Positions 1,089-19,303 of a stretch of DNA of 64,000 nt are shown here, piece after piece. A program made the position numbers and the translations under genes. The stretch spans positions 6,572,001-6,636,000 of the forward strand of contig NC_019673.1 of NCBI RefSeq assembly GCF_000328705.1, in the 5' to 3' direction. The notes beneath the pieces were generated by a model, which saw only the letters and a list, made by a program, of their open reading frames with translations, ran no database searches and was not told the DNA's origin. Position 1 is the stretch's first letter. Each line of letters begins with the position of its first letter. This DNA comes from Saccharothrix espanaensis DSM 44229 (GTDB taxonomy: Bacteria; Actinomycetota; Actinomycetes; Mycobacteriales; Pseudonocardiaceae).

Positions 1089-1093
1089 CGACC

Positions 1094-2377: not shown

Positions 2378-2399
2378 CGTCTCGTCCTTTCCGACCGGG

Positions 2400-3681: not shown

Positions 3682-4689
3682 TCAGTCCGCGCCGGGCGCG
3701 GAGTCCCGGGCGAAGGCGGTGGCCAGCCGGTCCAGGCCGTCGAGCAGCGCGACCCGCGGCACCCAGCCGGTGGCGCGCCGGAACGCGGACGGGTCCACCA
3801 CGAAGTCCAGCAGGTCCGTCGGCACCGAGTGCTCGGCCGGCGGCACCGAGAGCACCGGGACCGGCTGGTCGCCGGTGGTGGCGGCGACCACCTTCGAGAT
3901 CGTGGTGAACAGCTCCGCGATGCTGGTCGCCACGCTGGTGCCGATCAGCCACGACCCGCCGGTCACCGCCTCGGGCGCGTCCAGCGCGGCGACGAAGGCC
4001 CGCGCCGCGTCGTCGACGCAGAGCAGGTCGCGGTTGACCGTGCCGTCGTGCCACATGGTCAGCGGCTGTCCGGCGAACGCCCGGCGCATCATCGCCGAGA
4101 CCACCCCGCGGTCCAGGTCGGTGGCGTCCAGGCCACCGGAGTAGAGGGTGGCCAGCCGCAAGGTGGCGCCGCGCAGCACGCCCTCCGCGTCGGCGGCCGT
4201 GATCGCCCGCTCGGCGGCCATCTTCTGGAGGTCGTAGGTGGTCAGCGGCCGGTCCGGCTCGCTGCCGTCGATGCGGGCCGAGGTGGCGCGGCCGACCTGC
4301 GACATCGACCCGGCCAGCAGCACCAGCGGCGGCTTCTCGGGCCGCTGCCGGCGCAGCGCCTCGACGATGTCGTGGACCAGGCCGACGTTGACCCGCTCGG
4401 CGACCGGGTCGGTGGCCGCCACCCGCCACGTGCTGGCACCGGAGATCTGCGCCACGAGGTGGATCACCACGTCGGCGCCGTCGACCGCCGCGGCCACCGC
4501 GCCGGGCTCCCGCAGGTCGACCTGGCGGACGTCGATCTCCGCCAGGGCGCCCCGCGGCACCGCCGTGGCCCGGCGGCCGACGAGCCGCAGCCGGACCGGC
4601 CGGTCCGCCAGTTCGCGGGTGACGGCGGTGCCGACCAGCCCGGACGCGCCGAGCACGGTGATGAGTTGTTTCGCCGCCGATTTGCCCAC
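3682..4689 (-). CDS. NDP-4-keto-6-deoxyhexose 4-ketoreductase (SDR; EvaE/EryBIV type)
   Basis: Extended short-chain dehydrogenase of 335 residues that would reduce the C-4 keto group of a dTDP-deoxysugar, the last step before glycosyl transfer. The nucleotide-binding glycines are at residues 14-20 (GASGLVG) and the catalytic pair is Y152/K156 in TYDLQKMAAE, with the supporting serine in LLAGSMSQVG. The GTG at 4689 is chosen because AAAGGAG lies at the right distance upstream; the open frame begins earlier without a good ribosome site. First gene of the run leading into the three glycosyltransferases. The family assignment is strong; the stereochemistry (D or L product) cannot be read from sequence. 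Confidence 0.85.
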   Translation of the reverse strand: MGKSAAKQLITVLGASGLVGTAVTRELADRPVRLRLVGRRATAVPRGALAEIDVRQVDLREPGAVAAAVDGADVVIHLVAQISGASTWRVAATDPVAERVNVGLVHDIVEALRRQRPEKPPLVLLAGSMSQVGRATSARIDGSEPDRPLTTYDLQKMAAERAITAADAEGVLRGATLRLATLYSGGLDATDLDRGVVSAMMRRAFAGQPLTMWHDGTVNRDLLCVDDAARAFVAALDAPEAVTGGSWLIGTSVATSIAELFTTISKVVAATTGDQPVPVLSVPPAEHSVPTDLLDFVVDPSAFRRATGWVPRVALLDGLDRLATAFARDSAPGAD

Positions 4690-4920
4690 GGGTTCTCCTT
4701 TAGACCTTCCAATTGCCGCCACCGGCCGCACGAACAGCGTCCGACGTCCCGGACCGCCCGGTGCGAAGAATGGGCCGGACCGATTTCGGCACTGGTTCCG
4801 GGATTTCCGTCGAGTGCCACCCGAGCAGTGGACGCGGGTATTCGGCGTCGGTGCCGAGTGTATTGCCCCGGCCGGCCCGGGAGCACCGAACCCGGCGGGC
4901 GATTTCCGAGGTGTCCGCCG

Positions 4921-4936
4921 GTCCCGCTGGCGGGAC
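4921..4936. promoter_or_regulatory. Perfect 16-bp palindrome GTCCCGCTGGCGGGAC
   Basis: A perfect inverted repeat with 7-bp arms and a two-base centre, in the 252-bp gap between the aldo/keto reductase stop and the 4-ketoreductase start. It could be a short terminator or an operator. The same sequence with one central base changed occurs at 12718-12733, and a one-mismatch version at 8825-8840, all between genes of this cluster. The rest of the gap (4690-4920) shows no gene. Confidence 0.4.
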
Positions 4937-4941
4937 GGGAG

Positions 4942-5934
4942 TCAGCCCACCGCCTCCTCCGGGAGCTCGGTGGCGAACCGGGTCCGGTCCCAGCTCATCT
5001 CGCCGGTGGCCGCGGGCAGGGCGTCGATCTCCTTCAGGTCCTCCTCGGTCAGCTGGAGGTCCGCGGCCGCCGCGTTCTCCTCCAGCCAGCGCACGTGCCG
5101 GGTGCCCGGGATCGGCACCACGTTGTCGCCCTGGGTCAGCGTCCAGGCGATCGCCACCTGGGCCGGGGTGGCGTCGTGGCGGGCGGCGATCCGGTGCAGG
5201 CCCCGCACGATGGCCTGGTTGGTGCGCATCGCCTCCGAGGCGAACCGCGGGTCCCGCTGACGGGAGTCCTCCGCCTGGAGCTGCTCGTGGTCGAGCCGCC
5301 CGGACAGGTACCCGCGGCCGATCGGCGCGAAGGCGAGGAAGCCCACGCCGTGCTTCTGCGACCACGGCAGGATGTCGTCGAGGCTGTGCGTCGCCCAGAC
5401 CGAGAACTCGTACTGCACGGCCGTGATCGGGAAGATCGCGTGGATCTGCTCCAGTTCCTCGCAGGTGGCGTGGGAGATGCCGAGCCGGCGCACCTTGCCC
5501 TCGGTGACCAGCTCGCCCAGCGCGCCCCACGACTCGGCCAGCGGCACGGCGGGATCCACCCGGTGCAGCTGGTACAGGTCGATGGCCTCGACCCCGAGCC
5601 GGCGCAGCGAGCCCTCGCAGGCCGACCGCAGGTACTCCGGTCTGCCGTCGCGGCCGAACTTGCCGTCGGGCCGGGCCACCAGGCCGCACTTGGTCGCGAT
5701 CCGCACCTCGCCCGAGTGCGCGGCCAGCGCGCGGCCGAGCAGCCGTTCGTTGCTGAACGGGCCGTAGGCGTCCGCGGTGTCGAAGATGTCGATCCCGAGC
5801 TCCACCGCGCGGTGGATCACCCGGACCGACTCCTCGTCGTCGCGCTCCTTCGGCCCGTAGCCGTGCGACATCGAACTGCAGCCCAGGCCGATCTCGCTCA
5901 CCGAGAACGTGTCCGTGAGTTTCGTGTGACGCAT
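4942..5934 (-). CDS. Aldo/keto reductase
   Basis: NAD(P)H-dependent TIM-barrel reductase of 330 residues. The catalytic tetrad is intact: D52 and Y57 in FDTADAYG, K82 in TKCG and H124 in YQLHRVD. The N-terminus (EIGLGCSSMSHGYGP) resembles the YakC-like AKR13 branch rather than the EryBII/TylCII branch known from dideoxysugar pathways. A role in 3-keto or 2,3-enoyl reduction of an NDP-sugar is therefore likely from position but not proven. The ATG at 5934 is preferred over a TTG four codons upstream; the ribosome site is weak. It is separated from the downstream 4-ketoreductase by a 252-bp gap holding a palindrome, so it may have its own terminator. Confidence 0.85.
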   Translation of the reverse strand: MRHTKLTDTFSVSEIGLGCSSMSHGYGPKERDDEESVRVIHRAVELGIDIFDTADAYGPFSNERLLGRALAAHSGEVRIATKCGLVARPDGKFGRDGRPEYLRSACEGSLRRLGVEAIDLYQLHRVDPAVPLAESWGALGELVTEGKVRRLGISHATCEELEQIHAIFPITAVQYEFSVWATHSLDDILPWSQKHGVGFLAFAPIGRGYLSGRLDHEQLQAEDSRQRDPRFASEAMRTNQAIVRGLHRIAARHDATPAQVAIAWTLTQGDNVVPIPGTRHVRWLEENAAAADLQLTEEDLKEIDALPAATGEMSWDRTRFATELPEEAVG

Positions 5935-6320: not shown

Positions 6321-8030
6321 CTACCGGCTCCGCGTGCGCTCGCCTGCCCGCCCGGTCGGCGTGATGAACTGGCTCGCCAGGTCCGGGGTCGCGGCCGCGA
6401 CGAACGCGAGCGCCTGGCGGGTGCCGGCGTCGGGCAGCACGTAGTGCCGTTCTCCCGCCGGGGTGGGGATCTGCACCGTCACCCGGCGGCCCATCCGCTG
6501 GAAGATCGACTGGCGCAGGGTCCAGCCGATCACCGCGCGGTTCTGCAGCGCGACCGTGGAGCGGGTGAACGCCCCCCGGCGGACCACCAGGTAGGAGCCG
6601 CTGAGCGCGTGGCCGAGCGCCAGGTACGCGAACGCGGCGGCGAGCAGGGCCACCGGCCAGAGCGCGACCCCGATCCACCAGGCCCAGTCCGGCAGCGCGT
6701 CGGTCGCCCCCAGCCAGAACAGCACGCCCGCGAGGGCGGCCGGGCCGTAGGTGGCCCAGATCAGGCGCCGGGTCAGCGCACCGCGCGGGTGGCGCGCCAG
6801 CGGCGCCTCCATCGGGCTCGGTTCGCCGGTGAGCACCTTGGCGGCCACCTCGCGGGCTTCCCACAGCCGCACGCGGGGCAGGATGCCGGCCGCCCCGTTC
6901 TCGTCGGAGCCGCCCTTCAGGCCGGTGGTGACCACGCTCGTCCGGGTGAGGCCGAGCCAGCGCCACAACAGCGGTTCCTTGAAGTGGAGGCCGCGGATGC
7001 GCGTCTCGTCGCGGTACACCGTGCGGGTGCTGAGCAAACCGCGCCGGGTGAGCAGCGCCGGGCGGCCCTTGGTCGCGGTGCGGACGAGCGCGAAGTCCCA
7101 GTTGGCCATCACGAAACCGAGCCCGAGGACGACGACGCCCAACGGGTAGGCGACCGCGCAGCACAGGGCGAGCGACCACCAGAACCCGCGCCGCTCGTAG
7201 TCGACCAGGCCCTGGACGATCTCCAGCAGGTCGACGCCGAAGGGTTGGAGGGTCCAGTACAGGCCGAAGACCGGCGCGCCGAACGCGAAGATGGCCCACA
7301 CGCTGAACATCTCGTACAGCACCCACGGCTTGCGGAACCGGGCGAGGACCTCTTCAGGCGGTCCGGGCTCCGGCTCGACAGCCGACTGCTCCGCCGCCTG
7401 CCCGGGCTCCTCCTCCGCCACGGGCCGCGGTGCCGGTTCGTCGGCCCCGTCCGGCATCAGCTGCCGGCGCAGCGCTTCGGCGGTGGGGATGGTGAGCGCG
7501 TCGAGCTTGAACGACGAGCGCGACTCCCCCGACCCGATGTGCACGACCCGGACCCCGGCCAGCCGGTGCCGCAGCCGCACGCTGCTGTCCACGCTCCGGA
7601 TGCGGTCGCGGGGGACGTAGCGGTACTGGCGCACCAGCCAGCCGGACTTGCGCTCGACGCGGTCGCCGGTGACGCGGTACCGGGTCACCAGGAAGCGCAG
7701 GAAGGCCAGCACCGTGGCGAAGACGCCGATGGCGCTGGCGATGAGCAGCGGCCACACCGGACCGGCCGGGGTGTTCAGCACGACCGTGGCCAGCACGCCC
7801 GGGACGATCGACAGGACCAGCCGGACGAGGTTGACCCACACCATGCGGACGCTGAGCCGTTCCCAGGCGATCTCCGGGTGGCTGCCGGGGCCGGGATCCG
7901 GCTCGCCCGCACCGGCTTCGAGCGCGTCGGCGCGGTCGACGGCCGCTTCGGCGGTCACCTCGGAAGTCGGGTCGGCGGTCGGGCCGGTCGCGTCGGAAGT
8001 CGTGTCGGAGGTGGAGTTCCCGGCGGTCAC
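6321..8030 (-). CDS. Membrane protein with repeated bacterial PH (bPH2/DUF304) domains, YdbT-like
   Basis: Large partner of a two-gene PH-domain operon, 569 residues. After a charged, Thr/Ala/Glu-rich N-terminal tail there is a pair of membrane helices (VLSIVPGVLATVVL, LLIASAIGVFATVLAFLRF). The first PH-like unit follows (RYRVTGDRVERKSGWLVRQY, RIRSVDSSV), then two more helix-pair/PH units. The last one reads YLVVRRGAFTRS, where the YdbS/YdbT family has its strand-turn signature. The GTG start overlaps the stop of the smaller partner by four bases (GTGA). In Bacillus this pair is linked to resistance against membrane-active bacteriocins, so self-protection is possible, but many such pairs are housekeeping genes that simply sit next to clusters. 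Confidence 0.85.
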   Translation of the reverse strand: MTAGNSTSDTTSDATGPTADPTSEVTAEAAVDRADALEAGAGEPDPGPGSHPEIAWERLSVRMVWVNLVRLVLSIVPGVLATVVLNTPAGPVWPLLIASAIGVFATVLAFLRFLVTRYRVTGDRVERKSGWLVRQYRYVPRDRIRSVDSSVRLRHRLAGVRVVHIGSGESRSSFKLDALTIPTAEALRRQLMPDGADEPAPRPVAEEEPGQAAEQSAVEPEPGPPEEVLARFRKPWVLYEMFSVWAIFAFGAPVFGLYWTLQPFGVDLLEIVQGLVDYERRGFWWSLALCCAVAYPLGVVVLGLGFVMANWDFALVRTATKGRPALLTRRGLLSTRTVYRDETRIRGLHFKEPLLWRWLGLTRTSVVTTGLKGGSDENGAAGILPRVRLWEAREVAAKVLTGEPSPMEAPLARHPRGALTRRLIWATYGPAALAGVLFWLGATDALPDWAWWIGVALWPVALLAAAFAYLALGHALSGSYLVVRRGAFTRSTVALQNRAVIGWTLRQSIFQRMGRRVTVQIPTPAGERHYVLPDAGTRQALAFVAAATPDLASQFITPTGRAGERTRSR

Positions 8031-8557
8031 GTCGCGTCCCCCGGCGTGGCCTGGGTGATCTTGTTGAGGTGGCGCACGGTGTCCTCGGCGACCCGGACGT
8101 CCAGTCCTTCGATGGTGATGCCGCCCTCGCTGGACGCGGTGACCACCTTGACCGTGGCGAGGCCGAGCACCTGCTGGAGCGGACCGCGCTCGGTGTCGAT
8201 CCGCTGGATGCGCGAGATCGGGATGATCCGCCATTCCCTGGTGAGCCAGCCCTGGAGCACGTAGACCGCTTCGTCCGAGGTTTCCCAGCGGTGCACCAGG
8301 TAGCGCCAGGTCGGCATGACGGCGAGGTTCACCAGGTAGATCGCGCCGACGACCAGGATGATCGGCAGCAGCCACGTCCGGATGGAGTCGAACAGCGCGT
8401 ACAACGTGACCAGAACGCCCACCACGCCCAACCCCCAGAACAGCGCGTTCAGCGTGCGCCAGAGGATGAACCGGCGATCGACGCGGTGGCGCGGGGAGAG
8501 GACGGCGTACTCCTCCGAAGCGAGTCCTACCGGTGCAGGACGGGACGTTTCGGTCAT
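8027..8557 (-). CDS. Small membrane protein with single bPH2 domain, YdbS-like
   Basis: 176 residues: two membrane helices (FWGLGVVGVLVTLYALF and LLPIILVVGAIYLVNLAVM) followed by one bPH2 domain beginning AVYVLQGWLTREWRIIPISR with the RIQRIDTERGPLQQ signature. The ATG at 8557 has GGAG five bases upstream; in-frame upstream codons have none. It overlaps the larger partner by four bases, so the two products are probably made in fixed ratio and act as a membrane complex. The gene lies inside the natural-product cluster between the reductase and the carrier protein, on the same strand as both. Confidence 0.85.
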   Translation of the reverse strand: MTETSRPAPVGLASEEYAVLSPRHRVDRRFILWRTLNALFWGLGVVGVLVTLYALFDSIRTWLLPIILVVGAIYLVNLAVMPTWRYLVHRWETSDEAVYVLQGWLTREWRIIPISRIQRIDTERGPLQQVLGLATVKVVTASSEGGITIEGLDVRVAEDTVRHLNKITQATPGDAT

Positions 8558-8925: not shown

Positions 8926-9270
8926 TCAGTTCCGGGCTGGGTCCTGCGCTCCCGCCGGGGTGTCGGGCTGCTCGCCCGCCGCGGCGGCCGCGTCGTCCTC
9001 CGCGGCCAGCGTGACGACGAACGCGGCCAGGTCCCGGAAGGTCTCGCCCTCCCGGAAGTTCTCGAAGCGCTCCAGCAGCTGCATCCCGGTGGTGTTCTCC
9101 AGTTCCAACAGGATCTGCACCATCGAGAACGAGTCGAGGTCCATCAGCGACTGCGGCTCCGGCACGTCCGGCTGCTCGGCGCAGATCAGCTGGGCGGTGT
9201 TGCGCACCATCTCCTCGACCTCGTCGACGAGCGTCAGGTCGACCTTCGCGGCGAGATTGTTGTCAGACAT
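8926..9270 (-). CDS. Discrete acyl (aminoacyl) carrier protein
   Basis: 114 residues. The phosphopantetheine attachment serine is S47 in SLMDLDSFSMVQILLELE; the motif reads DSF rather than the common DSL, as in some aminoacyl and D-alanyl carrier proteins. A helical core of about 80 residues is followed by an acidic, Ala-rich C-terminal tail (DDAAAAAGEQPDTPAG). The ATG at 9270 is chosen because the protein then starts just ahead of helix 1; the longer open frame upstream looks random. It is divergent from the GNAT/cysteate-synthase operon. No adenylating enzyme is next to it, so loading must come from elsewhere in the cluster or from the adjacent GNAT-like proteins. It may carry beta-alanine or taurine (inference from neighbours). 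Confidence 0.88.
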   Translation of the reverse strand: MSDNNLAAKVDLTLVDEVEEMVRNTAQLICAEQPDVPEPQSLMDLDSFSMVQILLELENTTGMQLLERFENFREGETFRDLAAFVVTLAAEDDAAAAAGEQPDTPAGAQDPARN

Positions 9271-9618
9271 GTCTTCAGTGGCTCCTTCACTTCTTCCGTG
9301 CGGCCGAGACGGCGTCGACACGTTCAGAATGCGAGATCGCGGGGATGGTCCTCGCCTTGCCCGTTCGCGCGGAACGGAGTGCGCCTTCGGCACGACTCAC
9401 GTCCGGCGGTGCTCCACCAGCGGGCGGGCAAGCGGCACCCCGGCTGACAGTAGGCAGCGCGGCCGACCCCGGTCAACAAACGAATCAGGTTGGCTCGCAA
9501 CGGTTTCCGCCGCCGGACTCGGGCCGCTTGCCGGCCCGGCCGGCTCGGGTACGCTGGCGATCCACCGGGGTCCGGCCACCCCCGTCCGCCTCAGAACCGC
9601 GAATACGGAGGGGGACCC
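9271..9618. other. Divergent promoter region between ACP and GNAT operon
   Basis: A 348-bp divergent region. Nothing looks coding on codon use. It must hold the promoters for the carrier protein (leftward) and for the GNAT/cysteate-synthase operon (rightward); no clear -35/-10 pair could be assigned. Confidence 0.35.
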
Positions 9619-10185
9619 ATGTCGCTCTTTCCCCACGTGCGAGCCAGAAGGGTCGAACTCCGTCCCGGAGTCGCCGCCGACGGCCTGCTCTTCTACCAGC
9701 TCCTGCTCCGGGTCGGAGTGGAGAACCTGCCCCCGCCCGCCCGGGTGGCCGGGCAGTTCTTCGACAACTCGGCCGCGCTGTTCCGGATCCAGCGGCGCGG
9801 CTCCGGCGAGGTCATCGGGTACGCCACGCTGCGCGAGCTCGGCCAGGCCGGGCACGTCCGGCTCGCGGTGTACGTCGAGAAGGACAAGAGCCGCCACGGG
9901 GTGTCCGGCGAAGCGCTGTACCTTGTGGTCAACTACGCCTTCGCGGCGTACGACGTGGACCGCATCCTGTGCCGCACCACCGAGGAGAGCTTCGCCTACG
10001 TGCGGGGCGCCGGCGACGACGACCAGAAGCCCATCGGGATCTTCCCGGGGCACCGCTACTTCCGCGGCCGCCTGCTCGACCTGCACCACTTCCTGGTCAT
10101 GCGGGACGAGTGGACCGCGTTCTGGAACGACGCCGAGCACCACATAGTCGGACCCGGCAGGTCGGTCACCGCCGCCGGCACGTGA
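9619..10185 (+). CDS. GNAT-like acyltransferase, first copy
   Basis: 188 residues with a GNAT-like layout: a first strand RARRVELRPGVAADG, a central VIGYATLREL strand, then a helix region ALYLVVNYAFAAYDVDRILCRTTEES, where GNATs keep their acyl-carrier binding and beta-bulge segments. The C-terminal part (GHRYFRGRLLDLHHFLVMRDEW) matches the usual peer-group pattern of a GNAT acting on a small substrate. The ATG has GGAGGGGGA upstream. It starts a three-gene operon with the cysteate-synthase homologue 15 bp downstream and a second GNAT-like gene after it. Both copies may use an acyl or aminoacyl carrier protein rather than acetyl-CoA; that is inference. Confidence 0.75.
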   Translation: MSLFPHVRARRVELRPGVAADGLLFYQLLLRVGVENLPPPARVAGQFFDNSAALFRIQRRGSGEVIGYATLRELGQAGHVRLAVYVEKDKSRHGVSGEALYLVVNYAFAAYDVDRILCRTTEESFAYVRGAGDDDQKPIGIFPGHRYFRGRLLDLHHFLVMRDEWTAFWNDAEHHIVGPGRSVTAAGT

Positions 10186-10200
10186 CGCCGGAGGAATCGC

Positions 10201-11493
10201 ATGTCCGCAAGCCGCCCGCCCGACGGGCACTACCTGCTGTCGTGCCGGGTCTGCGGCCGCCGCCAACCCGACGACGGCCTGCTGCTCGACTGCCCCGCAC
10301 AGCACGAACCCTCGTTGCTGCACACCGAGTACCGCGCGACCGCACTGGTCCCGCGGGCGACCGAGCGGGGCCTGTTCCGGTACCGGAACTGGCTGCCCAT
10401 CAGCAGGACGCTGCCGGACGCGGGCGCGACGGTCACCTACCGGAGCACCACCGGCGTGGCCCGGCACCTCGGCATGGACGATCTGTGGATCGCGTTCAAC
10501 GGGTACTGGCCGGAGCGCGACGCCCGGCTGACCACCGCGACCTTCAAGGAACTGGAGGCGTTCACCGTCCTCGGCCGCTGCCCGACGTCGAGCGCACCGC
10601 TGGTGATCGCGTCGGCCGGCAACACCGCCGCGGCCTTCGCCGAGCTGTGCTCCAAGCACGAGATCGGGTGCGTGCTGGTGGTTCCGGCGAGCGGTCTGGC
10701 GAAGCTGCGGTTCGCCGAGCCGCCGCACCCGTGCGTCCGCCTGATCGCGCTGGACCGGGCGACCTACTCCGACGCCATCGCGTTCGGCGACTCGATCGCC
10801 CGGGAGCACGGGCTGCCGCTGGAGGGCGGGACCCGCAACGTCGGTCGGCGGGACGGCTTGGCGACCGTGCTGTACAACGCCGTCGAGGCGATGTCCGACC
10901 TGCCCGAGTTCTACTTCCAGGGCATCGGCAGCGGAGCCGGCGCCATCGCGGTGCACGAGGCCGCGCAGCGCCTCGCCCGCGCCGGCCGGGCGGGTCCGCC
11001 ACCGCGGCTCATGCTGTGCCAGAACGCGGAGTTCAGCCCGGTGCGCGCCGCGTGGCACGCCGGCCCGACCCCGCCCGAGGACCGGGCGCTGATCGACGCG
11101 GTCTACGCCGACGAGCTGACCAACCGGCGGCCGCCCTACGCCGTGCGCGGCGGGCTGCGCGACTGCCTGACCGAGAGCCGCGGCGAGGTGCTGGTGGCCG
11201 ACGCCCGCTCGGCGCGTGCCGCCGCCGCGGTGTTCCGCGACCTGGAGGGCATCGACATCGAGCCGGCCGCCGCGGTCGCGCTGGCCTGCCTGCGCGACTC
11301 CGTGCTCGCCGGGACGACGCCGAGGTCGGCCAAGGTGCTGCTCAACGTCACCGGCGGCGGACGGGCCCGCCGGGAGCACGAGCACGACCTGGCCACCGCG
11401 GTACCGGACCTGCGCGTCGACCACGCCGAGGTCGGCTCGGCGTCGGTGACCAGGGCGGTGGAGAAGCTGATCAACTCCCTCGCCCGCGTGTGA
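10201..11493 (+). CDS. Cysteate synthase family PLP enzyme (threonine-synthase fold)
   Basis: 430 residues. Cysteate synthase of methanogens makes L-cysteate from O-phosphoserine and sulfite. The family marks I recognise are all here: an N-terminal CRVCG...DCP cysteine cluster (C15, C18, C31), NWLPI, FNGYWPERDA, the PLP lysine K116 in TATFKELEAF, ASAGNT at 137-142, GGTRNVGRRDG, YFQGIGSGAGAIAVHEA, TNRRPPYAVRGGL and LEGIDIEPAAAVA. Agreement across the whole length, from memory of the archaeal family, is much closer than to ordinary threonine synthase. The enzyme sits between two GNAT-like genes, with PanD and an ACP nearby, suggesting it feeds a sulfonated amino acid to the cluster. An alternative is a related beta-replacement on phosphoserine with another nucleophile. 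Confidence 0.82.
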   Translation: MSASRPPDGHYLLSCRVCGRRQPDDGLLLDCPAQHEPSLLHTEYRATALVPRATERGLFRYRNWLPISRTLPDAGATVTYRSTTGVARHLGMDDLWIAFNGYWPERDARLTTATFKELEAFTVLGRCPTSSAPLVIASAGNTAAAFAELCSKHEIGCVLVVPASGLAKLRFAEPPHPCVRLIALDRATYSDAIAFGDSIAREHGLPLEGGTRNVGRRDGLATVLYNAVEAMSDLPEFYFQGIGSGAGAIAVHEAAQRLARAGRAGPPPRLMLCQNAEFSPVRAAWHAGPTPPEDRALIDAVYADELTNRRPPYAVRGGLRDCLTESRGEVLVADARSARAAAAVFRDLEGIDIEPAAAVALACLRDSVLAGTTPRSAKVLLNVTGGGRARREHEHDLATAVPDLRVDHAEVGSASVTRAVEKLINSLARV

Positions 11494-11540
11494 CGAACCG
11501 ACTTTCCTTACCACGGAACAAAGATCGAGGTGGCGAACCC

Positions 11541-12074
11541 GTGCTCTTCCCGTACTCCGAGTCCAAGCGGATCACCCTGACCCCGGCGGCTCCCGAAGAC
11601 GGCCCGGCCGTCTACGACGTCCTGCTCCGGCTGGGCCGCAGGACCCTGCCGCCGCTGGACGTCTTCCTGGCCGGCTACACCCACGGCGTGGACGCGCAGT
11701 TCCTGGTGCGGCACCGCGACGACGGCGAACTGGTCGGCGTGACGACCCTGTCCGAGCAGGAGACCGCCGGCCACATCCTGGCCTCGGTGCACGTCAACGC
11801 CGAACAGCCGGTGGCGATCGCGGCGGACGCCACGGCGCTGACGGTGAACTTCGCCTTCGCCAACTGGCGGCTGCGCAAGGTCTACCTCCAGTCCCACGAG
11901 GGCGACCTCGACGCGCTCGGGTTCGGCGACCGGCCCGCGGAGCTGGTCCGGGAGGAGGCGGTGCTGCCCGACCACCTGTACTTCCAGGGCCGGCGCTGGG
12001 ACATGCACGTCTACGCGGTGTACCGCGAGCAGTGGGACGAGCACGGCGTGGAGTGGCTCAACCAGATCGTCTGA
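11541..12074 (+). CDS. GNAT-like acyltransferase, second copy
   Basis: 177 residues, start GTG 11541 with GAGGTGG upstream. Same fold pattern as the gene at 9619 and clearly a paralogue in layout (LFPYSESKRITLTPAAPEDG against LFPHVRARRVELRPGVAADG at the N-terminus), but diverged in the middle. The segment DATALTVNFAFANWRLRKVYL corresponds to the carrier-binding helix of the first copy. The end DMHVYAVYREQWDEHGVEW again resembles GNATs. It closes the operon; a strong terminator follows. Function is unknown beyond probable acyl transfer. Confidence 0.75.
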   Translation: MLFPYSESKRITLTPAAPEDGPAVYDVLLRLGRRTLPPLDVFLAGYTHGVDAQFLVRHRDDGELVGVTTLSEQETAGHILASVHVNAEQPVAIAADATALTVNFAFANWRLRKVYLQSHEGDLDALGFGDRPAELVREEAVLPDHLYFQGRRWDMHVYAVYREQWDEHGVEWLNQIV

Positions 12075-12086
12075 CCGACCACGACA

Positions 12087-12138
12087 ACGAACGCGGTGGG
12101 CGGTGCACTCCGGGGAGTGCGCCGCCCACCGCGTTCGT
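12087..12138. terminator. Bidirectional terminator hairpin between GNAT2 and panD
   Basis: A near-perfect 25-bp inverted repeat (arms 12087-12111 and 12114-12138, one G-U type mismatch) with a tiny loop, sitting exactly between two converging genes. It has no T-run, as is usual in actinomycetes. Confidence 0.85.
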
Positions 12139-12162
12139 CCCGGCGTTGGCCGCCCGGTCACG

Positions 12163-12585
12163 TCAGACGGCGGTGTCGACCTCGTCGCCGCGCATCGTGT
12201 CGGTGCCCGGGATCGCGGCGGCCGCGTCGGCCCCGGAACCGAGCACGACGTTCTTCTCGTCCACGAAGACCACGCGCGGCACCAACTCGTCCGCCTCTTC
12301 CTCGGTCACCATGCAATAAGCGATGATGATGACCACGTCGCCGACCTGGACCAGCCGCGTGGACGGCCCGTTCACGCCGATGATCCCACTACCGGCCGGC
12401 CCTTTGATGACATAGGTGGAAAAGCGGCTGCCGTTGTTCAGGTCGACCACGGTGACCCGCTGCCCGGCCCTGATCTCGGCCGCCTCCATCAGGTCCTCGG
12501 CAATGGTCAGGGAACCGACGTAATGTAGATTCGCCTGGGTGATCGTGGCGCGATGAATCTTCGACTTGAGCATTTCCAAGTACAT
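12163..12585 (-). CDS. panD: Pyruvoyl-dependent aspartate 1-decarboxylase
   Basis: 140 residues; converts aspartate to beta-alanine after self-cleavage to form the pyruvoyl group. The cleavage site G24-S25 is in HYVGSLTI, and K9, R54, T57 and Y58 ([10 protein letters not shown]) fall at the same positions as in the E. coli enzyme. The ATG has AGGAGGAG upstream. The gene stands alone on the minus strand, not beside panB/panC as in pantothenate operons, so it is probably a second, pathway-specific copy. Beta-alanine could be a building block. Because cysteate is the sulfonic analogue of aspartate and a cysteate-synthase homologue is adjacent, taurine is an alternative product (inference). Confidence 0.93.
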
Positions 12586-12930: not shown

Positions 12931-14040
12931 ATGACGCTGTATGTCTGGGGTTATTCGCTGGAGTACGAGAAAGAACGCGACGACATCCTCGACGCGGTCG
13001 ACTCGGTCTTTCGATCAGGCCGGCTGGTGCTCGGTCCGAGCGTCCAGGCGTTCGAGGAGGAGTTCGCCGCCTACCACGGCGTCGCGCACTGCGTGGGCGT
13101 CGACAACGGCACGAACGCCATCGTGCTCGGCCTGCGCGCCCTCGGGGTCGGCGCCGGCGACGAGGTGATCACGGTGTCGAACACCGCGGCACCGACCGTG
13201 GTGGCGATCGACGCCGTGGGCGCCACGCCGGTGTTCGTCGACGTCGACCGCGACACCTACCTGATGCGGGTCGACCAGGTGGAGGCGGCGATCACCAGCC
13301 GCACCAAGTGCCTGCTGCCGGTGCACCTCTACGGGCAGTGCGTGGACATGGCGCCGCTGGAGGCCATCGCCGCCCGGCACGGCCTGCCGATCCTGGAGGA
13401 CTGCGCGCAGGCGCACGGTGCCCGCCACCACGGCCGGGTCGCCGGGTCGATGGGCAGGGCCGCGGCGTTCTCCTTCTACCCGACCAAGGTCCTCGGTGCC
13501 TACGGCGACGGCGGCGCCACGATCACCACGGACCGCGAGGTCGAGGAGAACCTGCGCCGGCTGCGCTACTACGGGATGGAGAGGGTCTACCACGTCGTCT
13601 CGACGCCCGGTTACAACAGCCGGCTCGACGAGGTGCAGGCCGAGATCCTGCGCCGCAAGCTCACCCGCCTCGACAGCTACGTCGCCCGTCGCCGGGTGAT
13701 CGCCGCGCGGTACGAGGAAGCGCTCGCCGGCACCGGGATCGTGACGCCGAAGACGGCTCCCGGCAACGACCACGTGTACTACGTCTACGTGGTGCGCCAC
13801 CCCGAGCGGGACCGGATCATCGAGGCGCTCAAGGCCAAGGACATCTCGCTGAGCATCAGCTACCCGTGGCCGGTGCACACCCAGACCGGGTTCGCGCACC
13901 TCGGCTACGCCAGGGGTTCGCTGCCGGTCACCGAAGAGGTCGCCGACCAGATCTTCTCGCTGCCGATGTTCCCCTCGCTCACCGACACCGAGCAGGAGTT
14001 CGTCATCGACGCGCTGCGCGAGGCGCTGGCGACGGTCTGA
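12931..14040 (+). CDS. dTDP-sugar 3-aminotransferase (DegT/DnrJ/EryC1/StrS family; EvaB type)
   Basis: 369-residue PLP aminotransferase that would place an amino group on a keto-deoxysugar, with glutamate as donor. The aspartate that contacts PLP is D157 in [10 protein letters not shown] and the Schiff-base lysine is K186 in [16 protein letters not shown], the usual family signatures; the C-terminus has the [12 protein letters not shown] element. Start ATG 12931 follows GGAGGAG. First gene of the plus-strand sugar operon, followed by 2,3-dehydratase, epimerase and C-methyltransferase, which points to 3-amination. C-4 amination cannot be excluded from sequence alone. Confidence 0.9.
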
Positions 14041-14114
14041 CCGCGGACGGTCCGGCCGCACCGCGCTCCTCGGCCCACCGCCGAGCGCCGCAACGACAGG
14101 GAGGGCTCATCCGG

Positions 14115-15521
14115 ATGAAGCGATTCGCCATCCCCCACGGGGACTTGGACAACCGGCTCTGGACGCCGGGGGGCTCGTTGACCTCCACCGCCGAGTTCCA
14201 CGACTGGTGGGCCGACCGGCACGCGGCCGGCCACTTCGTCGTCGAGCGGGTTCCGTTCTCCGCGCTGCGGGAGTGGAGCTTCGAGCCGGGCACCGGGAAC
14301 CTCGGCCACGCGAGCGGTCGCTTCTTCACCGTCGAGGGGCTGGAGATCCGCGAGGGCGGGCGGGTGGTCAAGGCGCAGCCGATCATCAACCAGCCGGAGA
14401 TCGGCATCCTCGGCATCGTGGTCAAGGAGTTCGACGGGGTGCTGCACTGCCTGATGCAGGCCAAGATGGAGCCGGGCAACGTCAACACCCTCCAGCTCTC
14501 GCCGACCGTCCAGGCCACCCGCAGCAACTACACCCGGGTGCACCGCGGCACCGGGACCCGCTACCTGGAGCACTTCATCGGCCCCGGTCGCGGCCAGGTG
14601 CTGGTGGACGTGCTGCAGTCCGAGCAGGGGGCCTGGTTCTGGCGCAAGCGCAACCGGAACATGGTCGTGCTGGTCACCGGCGACGTGCCGGTGCACGAGG
14701 ACTACTGCTGGCTGAGCCTGGCCCAGATCGGCGAGCTGACGCACGTGGAGAACCTGGTCAACATGGACGCCCGGACGGTCCTGTCGTGCATGCCGTTCGC
14801 GGTGCCCGACGAGGCCGCGGCGTCGACCGGGGAGCCGTTCCGGGACGCGTTGATCAACTCCTACCAGTACCAGCCCGAGGAGACCGGCGCGCCGGCGCTG
14901 CACACCGCGAGCGAGATCCTGAGCTGGTTCACCGAGGCGAAGACCGGCTGCGACTGGTCGGCCCGGCTGGCGCCGCTGGACGCGGTGCCCGGCTGGTCGC
15001 GCGACGACCGGGAGATCGGCGACGACGCGGGCGAGGACTTCCGCATCATCGGCGTCTCGGTCGAGGCCGGCACCCGGGAGGTGAAGAGCTGGACCCAGCC
15101 GCTGCTGTTCCCGCGCGGGCAGGGTCGGGCCGCGTTCCTCGCCCGGCCGATCGACGGCGTGCTGCACCTGCTCGTGCAGGCCCGGCCCGAGCACGGCCTG
15201 CTGGACATGGTGGAGATGGCCCCGACCGTGCACCTGCTGCTCGGCGAGGACCTGTCGGACGTGCCGCCGTTCGTCCGCGACGCCCTGGCGTCCGACGGCG
15301 CGAAGGTGCGCTACGACAACGTGCTCTCCGAGGAGGGCGGGCGGTTCTTCAACGCGCTGACCCGCTACCAGGTCATCGAGGTCGGCGAGGACGTGCCGGT
15401 CGAGGTGCCGCCGAACTTCTGCTGGCTGACCGTGCGCCAGCTGATCGACCTGCTGCGGCACGGGCACTACCTCAACATCGAGGCCCGCAGCCTGCTCGCC
15501 TGCATCCACAGCCTGTGCTGA
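14115..15521 (+). CDS. NDP-hexose 2,3-dehydratase (EvaA/EryBVI/TylCVI type)
   Basis: 468 residues, the normal length. Removes water from an NDP-4-keto-6-deoxyhexose, opening the route to 2,6-dideoxysugars. The protein has the internal duplication of this family: the first half contains LVDVLQSEQGAWFWRKRNRN and the second VLSEEGGRFFNALTRYQV, with CWLSLAQIGEL and CWLTVRQLIDLL at equivalent positions. The ATG at 14115 has AGGGAGG 11 bases upstream. Its presence shows that at least one sugar made here is deoxygenated at C-2. Confidence 0.92.
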   Translation: MKRFAIPHGDLDNRLWTPGGSLTSTAEFHDWWADRHAAGHFVVERVPFSALREWSFEPGTGNLGHASGRFFTVEGLEIREGGRVVKAQPIINQPEIGILGIVVKEFDGVLHCLMQAKMEPGNVNTLQLSPTVQATRSNYTRVHRGTGTRYLEHFIGPGRGQVLVDVLQSEQGAWFWRKRNRNMVVLVTGDVPVHEDYCWLSLAQIGELTHVENLVNMDARTVLSCMPFAVPDEAAASTGEPFRDALINSYQYQPEETGAPALHTASEILSWFTEAKTGCDWSARLAPLDAVPGWSRDDREIGDDAGEDFRIIGVSVEAGTREVKSWTQPLLFPRGQGRAAFLARPIDGVLHLLVQARPEHGLLDMVEMAPTVHLLLGEDLSDVPPFVRDALASDGAKVRYDNVLSEEGGRFFNALTRYQVIEVGEDVPVEVPPNFCWLTVRQLIDLLRHGHYLNIEARSLLACIHSLC

Positions 15522-15624
15522 GCGCGGCGGCGGACGGGTCGGCGGCGGTGTGCGGGAGGGCGGCCGGCCGATACCCTCGATTCCCGCGAAAACCCTTGGG
15601 AGCTGGTGGAAAGTGGTGCCGACG

Positions 15625-16236
15625 ATGAAGATCACCGAGACGTCGATCCGGGACGCCTACCGGATCCACCCCGAGCTCCACCCGGACCGGCGCGGCCGCT
15701 TCCACGAGGCGTTCCGGGCCGGCGAGCTCTCCGCGGCCATCGGCTACCCGTTCGTGGTCGGCCAGGCGAACTACTCGGTCAGCGTCAAGAACACCCTGCG
15801 CGGCATCCACGGCACCACGCTGCCGCCGGGCCAGGCCAAGCTGGTCACCTGCGTGCGCGGCGCGGTGATGGACGTGGCGGTGGACCTGCGGGTGGGCTCG
15901 CCGACCTTCGGCGCCTACGAGGTGACCTACCAGGACGAGGACTCCGGCGTCGCGGTGTACCTGGCCGACGGCCTCGGCCACGCCTTCCTGGCGCTGACCG
16001 ACGACGCCTGCATGAACTACCTGTGCTCCGAGGAGTACGTGCCCGGCACCATGATCATGGTCGACCCGCTGGACCCCGACATCGGCATCCCGTGGAACCT
16101 CACCGACCCGCCGGTCATGTCGGACAAGGACGCGGGCGGGCTGTCGCTGAAGGACGCGGCGTCCTCCGGGCTGCTGCCGACCTACGACGAGTGCCTCGCG
16201 CACTACGCGGCGCTGAGGGCGGCATCGCCGTCGTGA
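15625..16236 (+). CDS. dTDP-4-keto-6-deoxyhexose epimerase (RmlC cupin family; EvaD type)
   Basis: 203 residues, a standard-length RmlC-like cupin. The catalytic histidine is H62 in LRGIHG, with D87 in VAVDLRVGSPTFG and Y137 in SEEYVPG near the acid/base positions; the ending MVDPLDPDIGIPW is typical. Epimerisation at C-5 (and possibly C-3) implies an L-sugar product. The ATG at 15625 is used here, but GTG codons at 15613 and 15616 are better spaced from the GGGAG at 15598-15602 and could be the real start. Middle gene of the sugar operon. Confidence 0.9.
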   Translation: MKITETSIRDAYRIHPELHPDRRGRFHEAFRAGELSAAIGYPFVVGQANYSVSVKNTLRGIHGTTLPPGQAKLVTCVRGAVMDVAVDLRVGSPTFGAYEVTYQDEDSGVAVYLADGLGHAFLALTDDACMNYLCSEEYVPGTMIMVDPLDPDIGIPWNLTDPPVMSDKDAGGLSLKDAASSGLLPTYDECLAHYAALRAASPS

Positions 16237-16303
16237 CCGCCGGCCGCGCCACCGCGCCGACCCGACCCGTCCTTTCCCCTCTGACCAGCGGAGTTCCTTC
16301 CCC

Positions 16304-17299
16304 ATGAAGAACATCGGCCCGGATCGGCGGCTACGTGTAGGGGTGGTCGGGTGCGCGGAGATCGCCGGGCGGCGGACCCTGCCCGCGATGGTCGCGAACC
16401 CCGACATCGAGGTGGTCGCGATCGCCAGCCGGGACGAGGGGCGCGCGCGGGAGTTCACCGACCGGTTCGGCGGCTCGCCGCTCAAGGGGTACAGCGCCCT
16501 GATCGACCGCGAGGACGTGGACGCGATCTACAACCCGCTCCCCCTGCTGCTGCACGCGGAGTGGACCGAGCGCGCGTTGACCGCCGGCAAGCACGTCCTG
16601 GTCGAGAAGCCGATGACCGACAGCCACAAGGAGTCGAGCCGGCTCATCGAGCTGGCCCGGGCCAAGGGTCTCGTGCTGATGGAGAACTACATGTTCCTGC
16701 ACCACTCGCAGCACAGCGAGGTGCGCCGCATGGTGGACGGCGGGGCCATCGGCGAGCTGCGCGGCTTCTCCGCCGCGTTCACCTTCCCGCCCAAGCCCGC
16801 AGGCGACATCCGGTACCAGCCCGGGGTCGGCGGCGGGGCGTTCCTCGACTTCGGCGGCTACCCGGTCAAGGTGGCGATGTACTTCCTCGGCAACGACCTG
16901 CGCATCGGCGGCGCGGTCTTCCGGGAGCACCGCGACTTCGGCGCGGTGCTGTCCGGGGAGGTCCTGCTCTACACGCCGGCCGGGATCACCGCCCACCTCT
17001 CGTTCGGCATGGAGCACTCCTACCGGAACAGCTACCGGCTGATCGGGAGCACCGGCCGGCTGCTGCTCGACTGGGTCTTCACGCCGCCCGAGACCCACCG
17101 GCCGGTGGTCCGGGTCGAGCGGCAGGACCACCGCGAGGAGTTCGTGCTGCGAGCCGACCACCAGTTCGCCAACGCCATCAGCGCGTTCGTGCACGCCGTG
17201 CGCACCGGCCAGGACCTGCGGCCGCAGCACGAGGACGCGCTGGAGCAGATCACCCTGCTGGAGGGCATCCAGCGGCAGGCCGCGCACATCAGGGTCTGA
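16304..17299 (+). CDS. Gfo/Idh/MocA oxidoreductase, likely NDP-sugar 3-ketoreductase
   Basis: 331 residues. N-terminal Rossmann fold with GVVGCAEIA at 13-21, then the family's EKP motif at 101-103 with K102 as likely active-site lysine, and the C-terminal sheet domain with GGGAFLDFGGYPV. Proteins of this family reduce the 3-keto group left by the 2,3-dehydratase in deoxysugar pathways (KijD10 is an example). Since the operon also encodes a 3-aminotransferase, this enzyme probably serves a second, neutral dideoxysugar drawn from the same intermediate. That would agree with three glycosyltransferases. GGAG lies 12 bases upstream of the ATG. Confidence 0.87.
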   Translation: MKNIGPDRRLRVGVVGCAEIAGRRTLPAMVANPDIEVVAIASRDEGRAREFTDRFGGSPLKGYSALIDREDVDAIYNPLPLLLHAEWTERALTAGKHVLVEKPMTDSHKESSRLIELARAKGLVLMENYMFLHHSQHSEVRRMVDGGAIGELRGFSAAFTFPPKPAGDIRYQPGVGGGAFLDFGGYPVKVAMYFLGNDLRIGGAVFREHRDFGAVLSGEVLLYTPAGITAHLSFGMEHSYRNSYRLIGSTGRLLLDWVFTPPETHRPVVRVERQDHREEFVLRADHQFANAISAFVHAVRTGQDLRPQHEDALEQITLLEGIQRQAAHIRV

Positions 17300-17357
17300 G
17301 CGCGACCCCCTCGTCCGACGTGCTGTGTTGCCAGTTCCGACCTACCAGGAGCTACCA

Positions 17358-18587
17358 ATGTCGAACAATTCCCGGTGTCGAGTGTGCGGCGGAACGGTCC
17401 GCGAGTTCTTCGACTTCGGCCGTCAGCCGCTCTCCGACGCCTTCGCGCCGCCGGACGCGGACTTCACCCAGGAGTTCTTCTTCCGGCTCGCCACCGGGGT
17501 CTGCGAGGGCTGCACGATGGTGCAGCTGATGGAGGAGGTGCCGCGGGACCGGATGTTCCACGAGGACTACCCGTACCACTCCTCCGGTTCCTCGGTCATG
17601 CGCGAGCACTTCGAGCAGTTGGCCAAGCGGTTCCTGGCCACCGAGCTGACCGGCGACGACCCGTTCATCGTCGAGATCGGCTGCAACGACGGCATCATGC
17701 TCAAGGCGGTCGCCGAGGCGGGCGTCCGGCACCTGGGCGTGGAACCGTCCGGTGGCGTGGCCGCGCTCGCGGCGACGAAGGGCATCCAGGTCCGCAACGC
17801 GTTCTTCGAACAGGGCACGGCCGGTGAGATCGTCACCGAGCAGGGCCGGGCCGACGTGATCTACGCGGCCAACACGCTGTGCCACATCCCCTACATGGAG
17901 TCGATCCTCACCGGCGTCACCGCGCTGCTCAAGCCGACCGGGGTGTTCGTCTTCGAGGACCCGTACCTGGGCGACATCGTCGAGCGCACGTCGTTCGACC
18001 AGATCTACGACGAGCACTTCTTCCTCTTCAGCGCCCAGTCGGTGCAGGCGATGGCGAGCCGGTTCGGGCTGGAGCTGGTGGACGTCGAGCGCCTCGCCGT
18101 GCACGGCGGCGAGGTCCGCTACACCCTCGCGCCGGCCGGCCGGCGCACCCCGACCCCGGAGGTCGCCGCGCTGGTGGCCCAGGAGCGGGAGCGCGGGATC
18201 GCGGACCCGGCCACGCTGGAGGCGTTCGGCGCGCGCGTGCTCAAGATCCGCGACGACCTGGTGGCGCTGCTGGAGAAGCTGCGCGCCGAGGGCCGGCGGG
18301 TGGTCGCCTACGGTGCCACCGCGAAGAGCGCGACCGTGACCAACCTGTGCGGGATCGGGCCGGAGCTGGTCGAGTTCGTCTGCGACAGCACGCCGGCCAA
18401 GCAGGGCCGGGTCACCCCGGGCACGCACATCCCGGTGCGCGAGTCCGCGGCGTTCGCCCAGCCGTACCCGGACTACGCGCTGCTGTTCGCCTGGAACCAC
18501 GCCGAGGAGATCATGGCCAAGGAGCAGGAGTTCCGCGACCGCGGCGGCAAGTGGATCTTGTACGTGCCGGACGTGCGCATCGTCTGA
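17358..18587 (+). CDS. NDP-sugar C-3 methyltransferase (EvaC/TylCIII type)
   Basis: 409 residues with the three-part layout of sugar C-methyltransferases: an N-terminal zinc domain (C7, C10, C49, C52), a central SAM domain with EIGCNDG at 106-112, and a C-terminal Rossmann domain (VVAYGATAKSATVTNLCG). The enzyme adds a methyl group at C-3 of a 4-keto-2,6-dideoxysugar, before transamination in the vancosamine route. Start ATG 17358 has AGGAG upstream; the longer frame is less likely. Its pairing with a 3-aminotransferase is what indicates a branched amino sugar. Confidence 0.92.
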   Translation: MSNNSRCRVCGGTVREFFDFGRQPLSDAFAPPDADFTQEFFFRLATGVCEGCTMVQLMEEVPRDRMFHEDYPYHSSGSSVMREHFEQLAKRFLATELTGDDPFIVEIGCNDGIMLKAVAEAGVRHLGVEPSGGVAALAATKGIQVRNAFFEQGTAGEIVTEQGRADVIYAANTLCHIPYMESILTGVTALLKPTGVFVFEDPYLGDIVERTSFDQIYDEHFFLFSAQSVQAMASRFGLELVDVERLAVHGGEVRYTLAPAGRRTPTPEVAALVAQERERGIADPATLEAFGARVLKIRDDLVALLEKLRAEGRRVVAYGATAKSATVTNLCGIGPELVEFVCDSTPAKQGRVTPGTHIPVRESAAFAQPYPDYALLFAWNHAEEIMAKEQEFRDRGGKWILYVPDVRIV

Positions 18588-18775
18588 GCCGCCGACCGGG
18601 CACGCCGCGCCGCCGGTCCGGTCCGCTGGGGCCCGACCGCACCGGGCCGGCAGGAGTCGATCGCCGCTCGGCCCGCCGGGGCCGGGCGGCGAGGCGTGCG
18701 CCGGGACGCCGGCGGGTTCTGCTGGGTGCGCGCGTTCGCGCACCGGGATTCGGTCACGACGGAGGAGGGACCGGG

Positions 18776-19303
18776 ATGGGCGTCGGACGGACGGTGTGGC
18801 TGACCGGGCTGCCGAGCTCGGGCAAGTCGACGATCGCCGCGGCGGTGGCCGGGCGCCTGCGGGCCGACGGGTGGCCGGTGGAGGTGCTCGACGGCGACGA
18901 GATGCGCCGGAGCCTGACCGCCGGCCTCGGTTTCGGCCGCGCGGACCGGGAGGAGAACGTCCGCCGGATCGGCTGGGTCGCGGGTCTGCTGGCCCGCAAC
19001 GGGATCACCGTGCTGGTGCCGGTGATCGCGCCGTACGCCGCCGACCGCGACAAGGTGCGGGCCGCGCACCAGGAGCGCAACGTGCCGTTCAGCGAGGTGT
19101 TCGTCGCCACCCCGGTCGACGTGTGCGCCCGCCGGGACGTGAAAGGGCTCTACGCGAGGCAGCGCGCCGGCGAGCTGACCTCGTTGACCGGGGTGGACGA
19201 CCCGTACGAGCCGCCGGCGCACCCCGACCTGCGCGTGCCGGCGGACACCCAGTCGGTGGCCGAGTCGGTCGAGGCGGTGTACCGGCTGGTCGTCTCGCCC
19301 TGA
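18776..19303 (+). CDS. cysC: Adenylylsulfate (APS) kinase
   Basis: 175 residues, a typical stand-alone CysC; phosphorylates APS to PAPS. The P-loop is GLPSSGKST at residues 11-19; other marks are LDGDEMRRSLTAGLGF, REENVRRIGWVA, PVIAPYAADRD and ARRDVKGLYARQRAGE. Start ATG follows GGAGGAGGGA. It lies 188 bp after the methyltransferase on the same strand and is closed by a strong terminator. No sulfurylase (cysD/cysN) or PAPS reductase is in the window. In a cluster, PAPS could feed a sulfotransferase or, after reduction to sulfite, the cysteate-synthase homologue at 10201. Confidence 0.93.
   Translation: MGVGRTVWLTGLPSSGKSTIAAAVAGRLRADGWPVEVLDGDEMRRSLTAGLGFGRADREENVRRIGWVAGLLARNGITVLVPVIAPYAADRDKVRAAHQERNVPFSEVFVATPVDVCARRDVKGLYARQRAGELTSLTGVDDPYEPPAHPDLRVPADTQSVAESVEAVYRLVVSP

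Follow-up and report, generated by a model that had tools for sequence, protein, structure and literature searches.

A candidate cysteate route to taurine in the saccharomicin gene cluster of Saccharothrix espanaensis

The window analysed here, 64,000 nucleotides spanning bases 6,572,001 to 6,636,000 of the one-contig genome (9,360,653 bases) of Saccharothrix espanaensis DSM 44229, is by gene order the right half of the already known saccharomicin (sam) cluster. A five-gene stretch within it (8926-12585) encodes a protein resembling an acyl carrier protein (ACP; Sam25), two GNAT-like proteins (Sam26 and Sam28) on either side of a cysteate synthase (Sam27), and a PanD-type pyruvoyl decarboxylase (Sam29). 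We propose that Sam27 and Sam29 make the taurine of saccharomicin from phosphoserine and sulfite by way of cysteate, a reading to which we assign a probability of about 0.78. The identity of the two genes, their linkage and their replacement by other genes in related clusters all point to these two reactions.

The saccharomicin aglycone is N-caffeoyl-taurine (PMC3469384). The same 2012 paper, which stated that no taurine synthesis had been reported from bacteria, proposed that Sam29 acts as a cysteine sulfinate decarboxylase toward taurine and that Sam36 joins caffeoyl-coenzyme A (CoA) with taurine. The present locus corresponds to the published cluster (HE804045; PMC3469384) in its ten glycosyltransferases, tyrosine ammonia-lyase (TAL), HpaB, PanD (gene 29) and penicillin amidase (gene 36), and our reading differs from that paper in giving PanD cysteate, not cysteine sulfinate, as substrate. 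Cysteate is not mentioned in the main text of PMC3469384, and a limited literature search, confined to papers outside subscription, found no cysteate route to saccharomicin taurine in print. Sam29 and Sam36 are published names, and the other Sam numbers used here follow from our own count onward from the glycosyltransferases sam11-sam20. This count places PanD at 29 and the penicillin amidase at 36, as published, and hence makes Sam25 to Sam28 the ACP, GNAT, cysteate synthase and GNAT genes.

An earlier note on this DNA had described the five genes as part of a glycosylated natural-product cluster and suggested that cysteate synthase and PanD together would give taurine. All five frames are open, complete and in place according to the gene calls, the cluster is the sam cluster with its ten glycosyltransferases, and the taurine proposal emerges as the best reading for a product known to contain taurine (PMC3469384). 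The accompanying statement that no described cluster carries this exact set does not hold, since the sam cluster is published and its PanD had been proposed there to serve taurine formation from cysteine sulfinate. The coding strand changes twice across the five genes, giving three blocks (-, +++, -), so that they do not constitute a single operon.

Sequence identity of Sam27 and Sam29

Family membership identifies Sam27, a protein of 430 residues, as a cysteate synthase. Against the cysteate synthase equivalog TIGR03844 it reaches 378.5 bits, above the cut-off of 324.9, and no threonine synthase model gives it more than 51 bits. It contains both motifs, TATFKELEAF and FNGYWPERDA, that the earlier note had named for a full-length cysteate synthase homologue. 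A sequence search of the PDB returned the cysteate synthase 9k3c at 317.6 bits, with 38.8 bits for the best threonine synthase. The structure predicted for Sam27 (pLDDT 93.2) had the same entry, which the fold search identifies as Alistipes finegoldii CapA2, as its best fold match (TM 0.92, root-mean-square deviation 1.7, 41% identity).

The phylogeny and structure prediction that the earlier note had suggested as checks thus both place the enzyme among cysteate synthases. In a midpoint-rooted tree of 54 rows, built with 15 of 120 listed proteins, without five near-copies and without CapA2, a long starred branch (length 2.29) separates 50 cysteate synthase rows, including Sam27 and 16 archaeal enzymes, and four other rows, the branches concerned being very long. 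Three of these four are confirmed threonine synthases (264-270 bits against TIGR00260, cut-off 167.1). The fourth, labelled as a threonine synthase, is unclear, scoring 62.4 bits against thrC (cut-off 167.1) and 101.4 against cysteate synthase (cut-off 324.9). Of the columns fixed across the 16 archaeal enzymes, 41 are shared by Sam27, by its orthologue from Saccharothrix tamanrassetensis and by at least 10 of the 12 other bacterial rows, and differ in all three threonine synthases. A threonine synthase was hence rejected on model scores, PDB matches, tree and fold search, and the clustering with threonine synthase that the earlier note had named as a refutation did not occur.

Sam27 has the family model, the fold and the region around the pyridoxal phosphate (PLP) lysine in common with the archaeal cysteate synthases of Methanosarcinales and Methanomassiliicoccus (37-42% identity to the archaeal loci) and with CapA2, a cysteate synthase of sulfonolipid formation. 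Cysteate goes into coenzyme M in archaea. For another cysteate synthase it is passed on to capnine lipids (PMC11211663), whereas the cysteate of Sam27 is proposed here to become taurine for an antibiotic. Enzymes of this type are rare: 2 of 394 genomes of the class exceed the model cut-off, and 5 of 297 genomes of the family have a match at E <= 1e-60, the present genome being included in both counts.

Sam29 scores 154.2 bits against TIGR00223 (cut-off 106) and has the family model, the Gly-Ser cleavage site and the catalytic residues in common with PanD aspartate 1-decarboxylases. It keeps K9, H11, Y22, G24, S25, R54, T57, Y58, N72, G73, I86 and N112, among them the full catalytic set that had been read from the sequence before (G24-S25, R54, T57 and Y58). 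A comparison set of 118 other close PanDs, assembled from the top 120 of 7943 matches by leaving out three sam-type proteins and adding the housekeeping copy, agrees with Sam29 at all catalytic positions. Unlike ordinary PanD, Sam29 is a second copy outside the pan operon. The genome holds two PanD genes, and the location of the housekeeping one in panC-panD-coaX leaves Sam29 free for another job.

A changed loop at positions 74-76 (A74P, A75S and a departure at A76), together with D19N, E42Q and L55F, further separates Sam29 from ordinary PanD. The PanDs of the sam clade, namely Sam29, its S. tamanrassetensis counterpart and the metagenome protein P0125, all have P-S-T/S at 74-76 along with N19, Q42 and F55, and none of the 118 other close PanDs has S or T at 76, Q42 or F55. 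Both A74 and A75 figure in a list of strictly conserved PanD residues (PMC3314653), a set that Sam29, with P74 and S75, does not fully retain. Since 6 of the 118 other PanDs depart from this set as well, P74 and S75 lower only the claim of Sam29 to be an ordinary PanD. Ordinary PanD is competitively inhibited by L-cysteate (Ki 0.08 mM; PMC3314653). The compound hence fits the ordinary active site, which makes a PanD retuned to it plausible, but ordinary PanD is not known to convert it.

The proposed route would start with the conversion of O-phospho-L-serine and sulfite into L-cysteate by Sam27. Sam29 would then use its pyruvoyl group to decarboxylate this cysteate, yielding taurine, with Arg54 gripping the sulfonate in place of the beta-carboxylate of aspartate. 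The pyruvoyl chemistry of PanD requires a free amine, so decarboxylation should precede acylation.

Conservation of the five genes and exchange of the amine genes

The same five genes are present in S. tamanrassetensis in the same order and orientation, with 76-85% identity, and their arrangement is hence not due to chance. The conservation extends to the whole sam cluster, for which counterparts of sam5-sam36 (by count) were all found on three S. tamanrassetensis loci (L083, L084 and L013) with 76-95% identity. The S. tamanrassetensis cluster encodes 12 glycosyltransferases, versus 10 in S. espanaensis, and is predicted to direct a saccharomicin-like product. It also carries a flavin reductase gene (PF01613; L013:18706-19260) between the sam34 and sam35 counterparts, for which there is no room in the window (18587-18776).

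Among the loci compared, linkage of PanD to cysteate synthase was seen only in these two clusters. Among 33 cysteate synthase loci, with flanks of up to 10 kb and several of them shortened by contig ends, a PanD gene was found only at that of S. tamanrassetensis, giving 2 of 34 when the present window is included. Relatives of Sam27 with 53-60% identity adjoin MbtH or nonribosomal peptide synthetase (NRPS) genes at nine loci of Streptomyces, Kitasatospora and Actinophytocola (L014-L019, L021, L022 and L042), with MbtH or NRPS/PP-binding domains detected in one tested protein at each locus, and cysteate may serve there as an NRPS building block. In two actinomycetes, genes for cysteine dioxygenase-like cupins (PF05995 in both proteins tested) lie directly 3' of cysteate synthase (L017:11358-11903 and L050:2827-3408).

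Nine related regions of 54-81 kb, S. tamanrassetensis included, were compared with the sam cluster. Cysteate synthase, PanD, Sam10, Sam35 and Sam36 were matched only in S. tamanrassetensis, whereas SbnA, MbtH and NRPS matches appeared in six regions (G071, G273, G107, G577, G693 and G492), a seventh NRPS match (29%, G035) being left uncounted. SbnB is clear in five of the six SbnA clusters and reaches only 33% in G492. Equivalog cut-offs were passed by both SbnA and all three SbnB proteins tested, and family searches confirmed MbtH in G071 and NRPS in G107. The G492 cluster is found at the start of a contig, and that of G577 extends over two contigs.

The remaining components are broadly shared. 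An ACP match was obtained in all nine regions (over 53 residues only in G685), as were matches to both GNAT queries, which are paralogues and may hit the same gene; at least two GNAT genes are nevertheless listed per region, though G492 has one of its two in a fragmented state. The Sam7 ligase was matched in eight regions, TAL in seven, and the PH-domain proteins Sam23 and Sam24, which we would guess to act in export or immunity, in six and seven. The six SbnA/SbnB-NRPS clusters hence resemble sam in their ACP, GNATs, glycosyltransferases and sugar genes, and in five cases in ligase and TAL. They differ from it in that SbnA/SbnB and NRPS take the place of cysteate synthase and PanD, and that Sam10, Sam35 and Sam36 have no match. 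Like the proposed taurine, the diaminopropionate of SbnA starts from phosphoserine.

The retention of ACP and GNATs where cysteate synthase and PanD are missing indicates a common core independent of taurine. These proteins hence belong with the acyl or sugar side of the pathway, perhaps with hydroxycinnamoyl transfer, and not with taurine synthesis. A further arrangement is seen in G035 and G685, where Sam28-like genes have LanKC in their vicinity (901 and 941 bits against a cut-off of 575). Regions with LanKC (L093:3893-16753, L070 and L071) combine it with glycosyltransferases, a Sam7-like ligase and Sam28-like GNATs, with TAL in L093 only, and possibly direct acylated, glycosylated class III lanthipeptides.

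These comparisons suggest, at somewhat less than even odds, an actinomycete cluster family in which one core of hydroxycinnamoyl ligase, ACP, twin GNATs and oligo-deoxysugar genes is combined with exchangeable amine suppliers. Taurine would come from cysteate synthase with PanD and diaminopropionate from SbnA/SbnB with NRPS, and a class III lanthipeptide would be the third option; the GNATs would depend on ACP, their CoA loops lost or degenerate, and PanD would be retuned to cysteate.

Origin of the taurine and formation of the amide

Several observations weigh against the cysteate route. The other bacterial enzymes of the Sam27 clade adjoin NRPS genes, no assay is known to us for any of them, and 47 of 143 columns fixed in archaeal cysteate synthases differ in Sam27. 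The substitutions of Sam29 are in part not unique, since six of the 118 other close PanDs have P74, four have S75 and one has N19, and for ordinary PanD cysteate is reported to inhibit the enzyme and not to serve as its substrate (PMC3314653, PMC3461031). Elsewhere in the genome, outside the cluster, there are two cysteine dioxygenase-like genes, as well as eight matches to a broad PLP decarboxylase model, seven of them over its cut-off and none in the cluster. These eight matches stand beside the statement in the 2012 paper that a csad homologue was not detectable (PMC3469384).

The two cysteine dioxygenase-like genes, both CDO_I matches, are what the published route would call for. On this route cysteine dioxygenase would form cysteine sulfinate, Sam29 would decarboxylate it to hypotaurine, as proposed for this substrate in PMC3469384, oxidation would yield taurine and Sam27 would have some other job. 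The dioxygenase genes are over 1.3 Mb away from the cluster, the additional oxidation has to be accommodated and the linked cysteate synthase is left without a job; we therefore regard the sulfinate route as improbable, and the cysteate route is better supported. The PLP decarboxylase matches would accommodate a different division of labour, in which Sam29 is a plain aspartate decarboxylase supplying beta-alanine for CoA and ACP or as a side product, while an unlinked PLP decarboxylase turns the cysteate of Sam27 into taurine. The ordinary catalytic residues of Sam29 agree with this option, yet the cell already has a housekeeping PanD, and a PanD match is confined to the two sam clusters and missing from all eight other regions that keep the ACP, which renders it very improbable.

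For the assembly of the aglycone, Sam8 and Sam5 are known from published work to provide caffeate. Sam7 would activate it, most likely onto the ACP Sam25, Sam26 and/or Sam28 would move the caffeoyl group from Sam25 to the amine of taurine, and the glycosyltransferases would then build on the resulting caffeoyl-taurine. Loading of the ACP and the GNAT step are both inferred, and the acyl transfer, the least certain part of the mechanism, we consider an even call. GdvG of goadvionin is a GNAT-type acyltransferase that works alongside LanKC and passes an acyl group from an ACP to an amine. Sam26 and Sam28 would work alike, and Sam28-like genes and LanKC are joined in two of the regions compared here; the acceptor of GdvG is a peptide, that proposed for Sam26 and Sam28 is taurine.

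The carrier and GNAT assignments proposed in the earlier note are the weaker ones, drawn from common motifs and homologues with thin Pfam support. Searched alone, Sam25 matched no Pfam family at E <= 1, and its LDSFS motif, the DSF motif of the note, is common to its relatives, the serine of LDS being invariant in all seven aligned sequences, of which three match PF00550 at E <= 0.1. Sam26 lies only just above two GNAT cut-offs (25.5 versus 25.4 bits for Acetyltransf_3, and 24.8 versus 24.3 bits). Sam28 has no Pfam match alone and is a paralogue of Sam26 (31% identity, E 4e-28); PF13302 is matched at E <= 0.01 by 9 of 12 members of their family. The glycines of what we take to be the usual CoA loop are absent from Sam28 by eye. 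A protein search with Sam26 among 578 candidates returned only itself and its S. tamanrassetensis counterpart, and genome searches gave the distant relatives. A role for the GNATs in bringing the amine onto the carrier protein or taking it off, as the note had suggested, is not favoured, as all eight related regions without cysteate synthase and PanD keep ACP and GNATs.

Gene context speaks on both sides of the acyl transfer step. A Sam26-like gene directly precedes a Sam7-like ligase in G273 and G107, and the Sam28-like genes near LanKC are likewise consistent with acyl transfer. The step is weakened by the prediction for the GNAT pair, which had a pLDDT of 41.2 and was not used, by the NRPS of the relatives, which could form the amide without a GNAT, and by the gene neighbourhood in the SbnA clusters, where a Sam28-like gene adjoins the DegT aminotransferase in six of six and a Sam26-like gene has a sugar gene on each side in four (G071, G577, G693 and G492). 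This neighbourhood would fit acylation of amino sugars by the GNAT pair, for protection or self-resistance, with an exported Sam36 stripping the acyl groups outside the cell. The N-terminus of Sam36 resembles a signal peptide in both Saccharothrix species, as such an export would demand. Conversely, Sam36 has no match in eight of the nine related regions, so that the deacylase would be lacking where the GNATs are kept, and the two regions with LanKC and a Sam28-like gene also carry a Sam7-like ligase, and one of them TAL. We consider this alternative unlikely, if worth bearing in mind.

The published assignment of amide formation to Sam36 (PMC3469384) draws support from the confinement of this protein to the two taurine clusters among the regions compared. 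Its N-terminus was judged by eye and by a hydrophobicity scan, in which Sam36 reached 2.61 against 0.29-1.45 for 16 other sam proteins, and a similar N-terminus is present in S. tamanrassetensis; one tested glycosyltransferase-type enzyme has none. A cytoplasmic Sam36 had been considered from a start at 21649, which misses the hydrophobic N-terminus revealed by the longer frame from the ATG at 21754, and was rejected. Sam36 more likely acts outside the cell, which speaks against an amide-forming role, as does the finding that Sam20 acts on the aglycone, placing the first fucose onto its phenol (PMC8234114). Amide formation by Sam36 hence appears improbable, and caffeoyl transfer by Sam26 and/or Sam28 is retained as the proposed step.

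Cluster layout and significance of the taurine route

Upstream of the window lie genes for HpaB, a nucleotidyl transferase, a short ANL ligase, TAL, a methyltransferase and a sulfotransferase-like protein (family match below cut-off), followed by eight glycosyltransferases. The eighth runs into the window and, with two more inside it, makes up the ten, all of which matched EryCIII-like domains. The ligase matches its family only weakly, at 28.3 bits against a cut-off of 29.9. The features of the window are collected in Table 1. The adenylyl-sulfate kinase Sam35 was considered as evidence for taurine synthesis and set aside, because saccharomicin bears a sulfated fucose (PMC8234114) and the cluster has a sulfotransferase-like gene, so that supply of 3'-phosphoadenylyl sulfate for sulfation explains the kinase best.

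Table 1. Features of the sam cluster in the window
Feature	Position	Strand	Basis
ACP-like carrier protein, LDSFS motif (Sam25 by count)	8926..9270	-	Gene call, motif, homologues
GNAT-like protein 1 (Sam26 by count)	9619..10185	+	Pfam Acetyltransf_3, paralogue of GNAT-like 2, homologues
Cysteate synthase (Sam27 by count), 430 aa, PLP lysine K116	10201..11493	+	TIGR03844, tree, fold match
GNAT-like protein 2 (Sam28 by count)	11541..12074	+	Paralogy to Sam26, homologues
PanD-type pyruvoyl decarboxylase (Sam29), 140 aa	12163..12585	-	TIGR00223, residues
Three of the ten glycosyltransferase genes (sam18-sam20 by count; first cut by window end)	3..3668	-	EryCIII-like domains
NAD-dependent epimerase-like protein and aldo/keto reductase (Sam21, Sam22 by count)	3682..5934	-	PF01370, PF00248
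Two bacterial PH-domain proteins (Sam23, Sam24 by count)	6321..8557	-	PF03703
Deoxyamino-sugar genes (whole block): DegT aminotransferase (PF01041), NDP-hexose 2,3-dehydratase (PF03559), 3,5-epimerase (PF00908), Gfo/Idh oxidoreductase (PF01408), C-methyltransferase (PF08484)	12931..18587	+	
Adenylyl-sulfate kinase (Sam35 by count)	18776..19303	+	TIGR00455 196.2 bits, cut-off 138.7
Penicillin-amidase family protein (Sam36)	19358..21754	-	PF01804 690 bits; ATG at 21754

The origin of the taurine in saccharomicin was only a proposal in 2012, and the linked cysteate synthase and second PanD give it a concrete route. The comparison of related clusters also predicts a set of diaminopropionate and lanthipeptide glycosides, which match no compound known to us. 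A taurine route in prokaryotes that relies on a PLP decarboxylase has reportedly been described since. If true, the sam version would be, to our knowledge, the first cluster-encoded bacterial taurine pathway with a terminal pyruvoyl decarboxylase. It would mean that a pyruvoyl enzyme has been recruited for taurine, and that two genes suffice for a taurine route from phosphoserine and sulfite.

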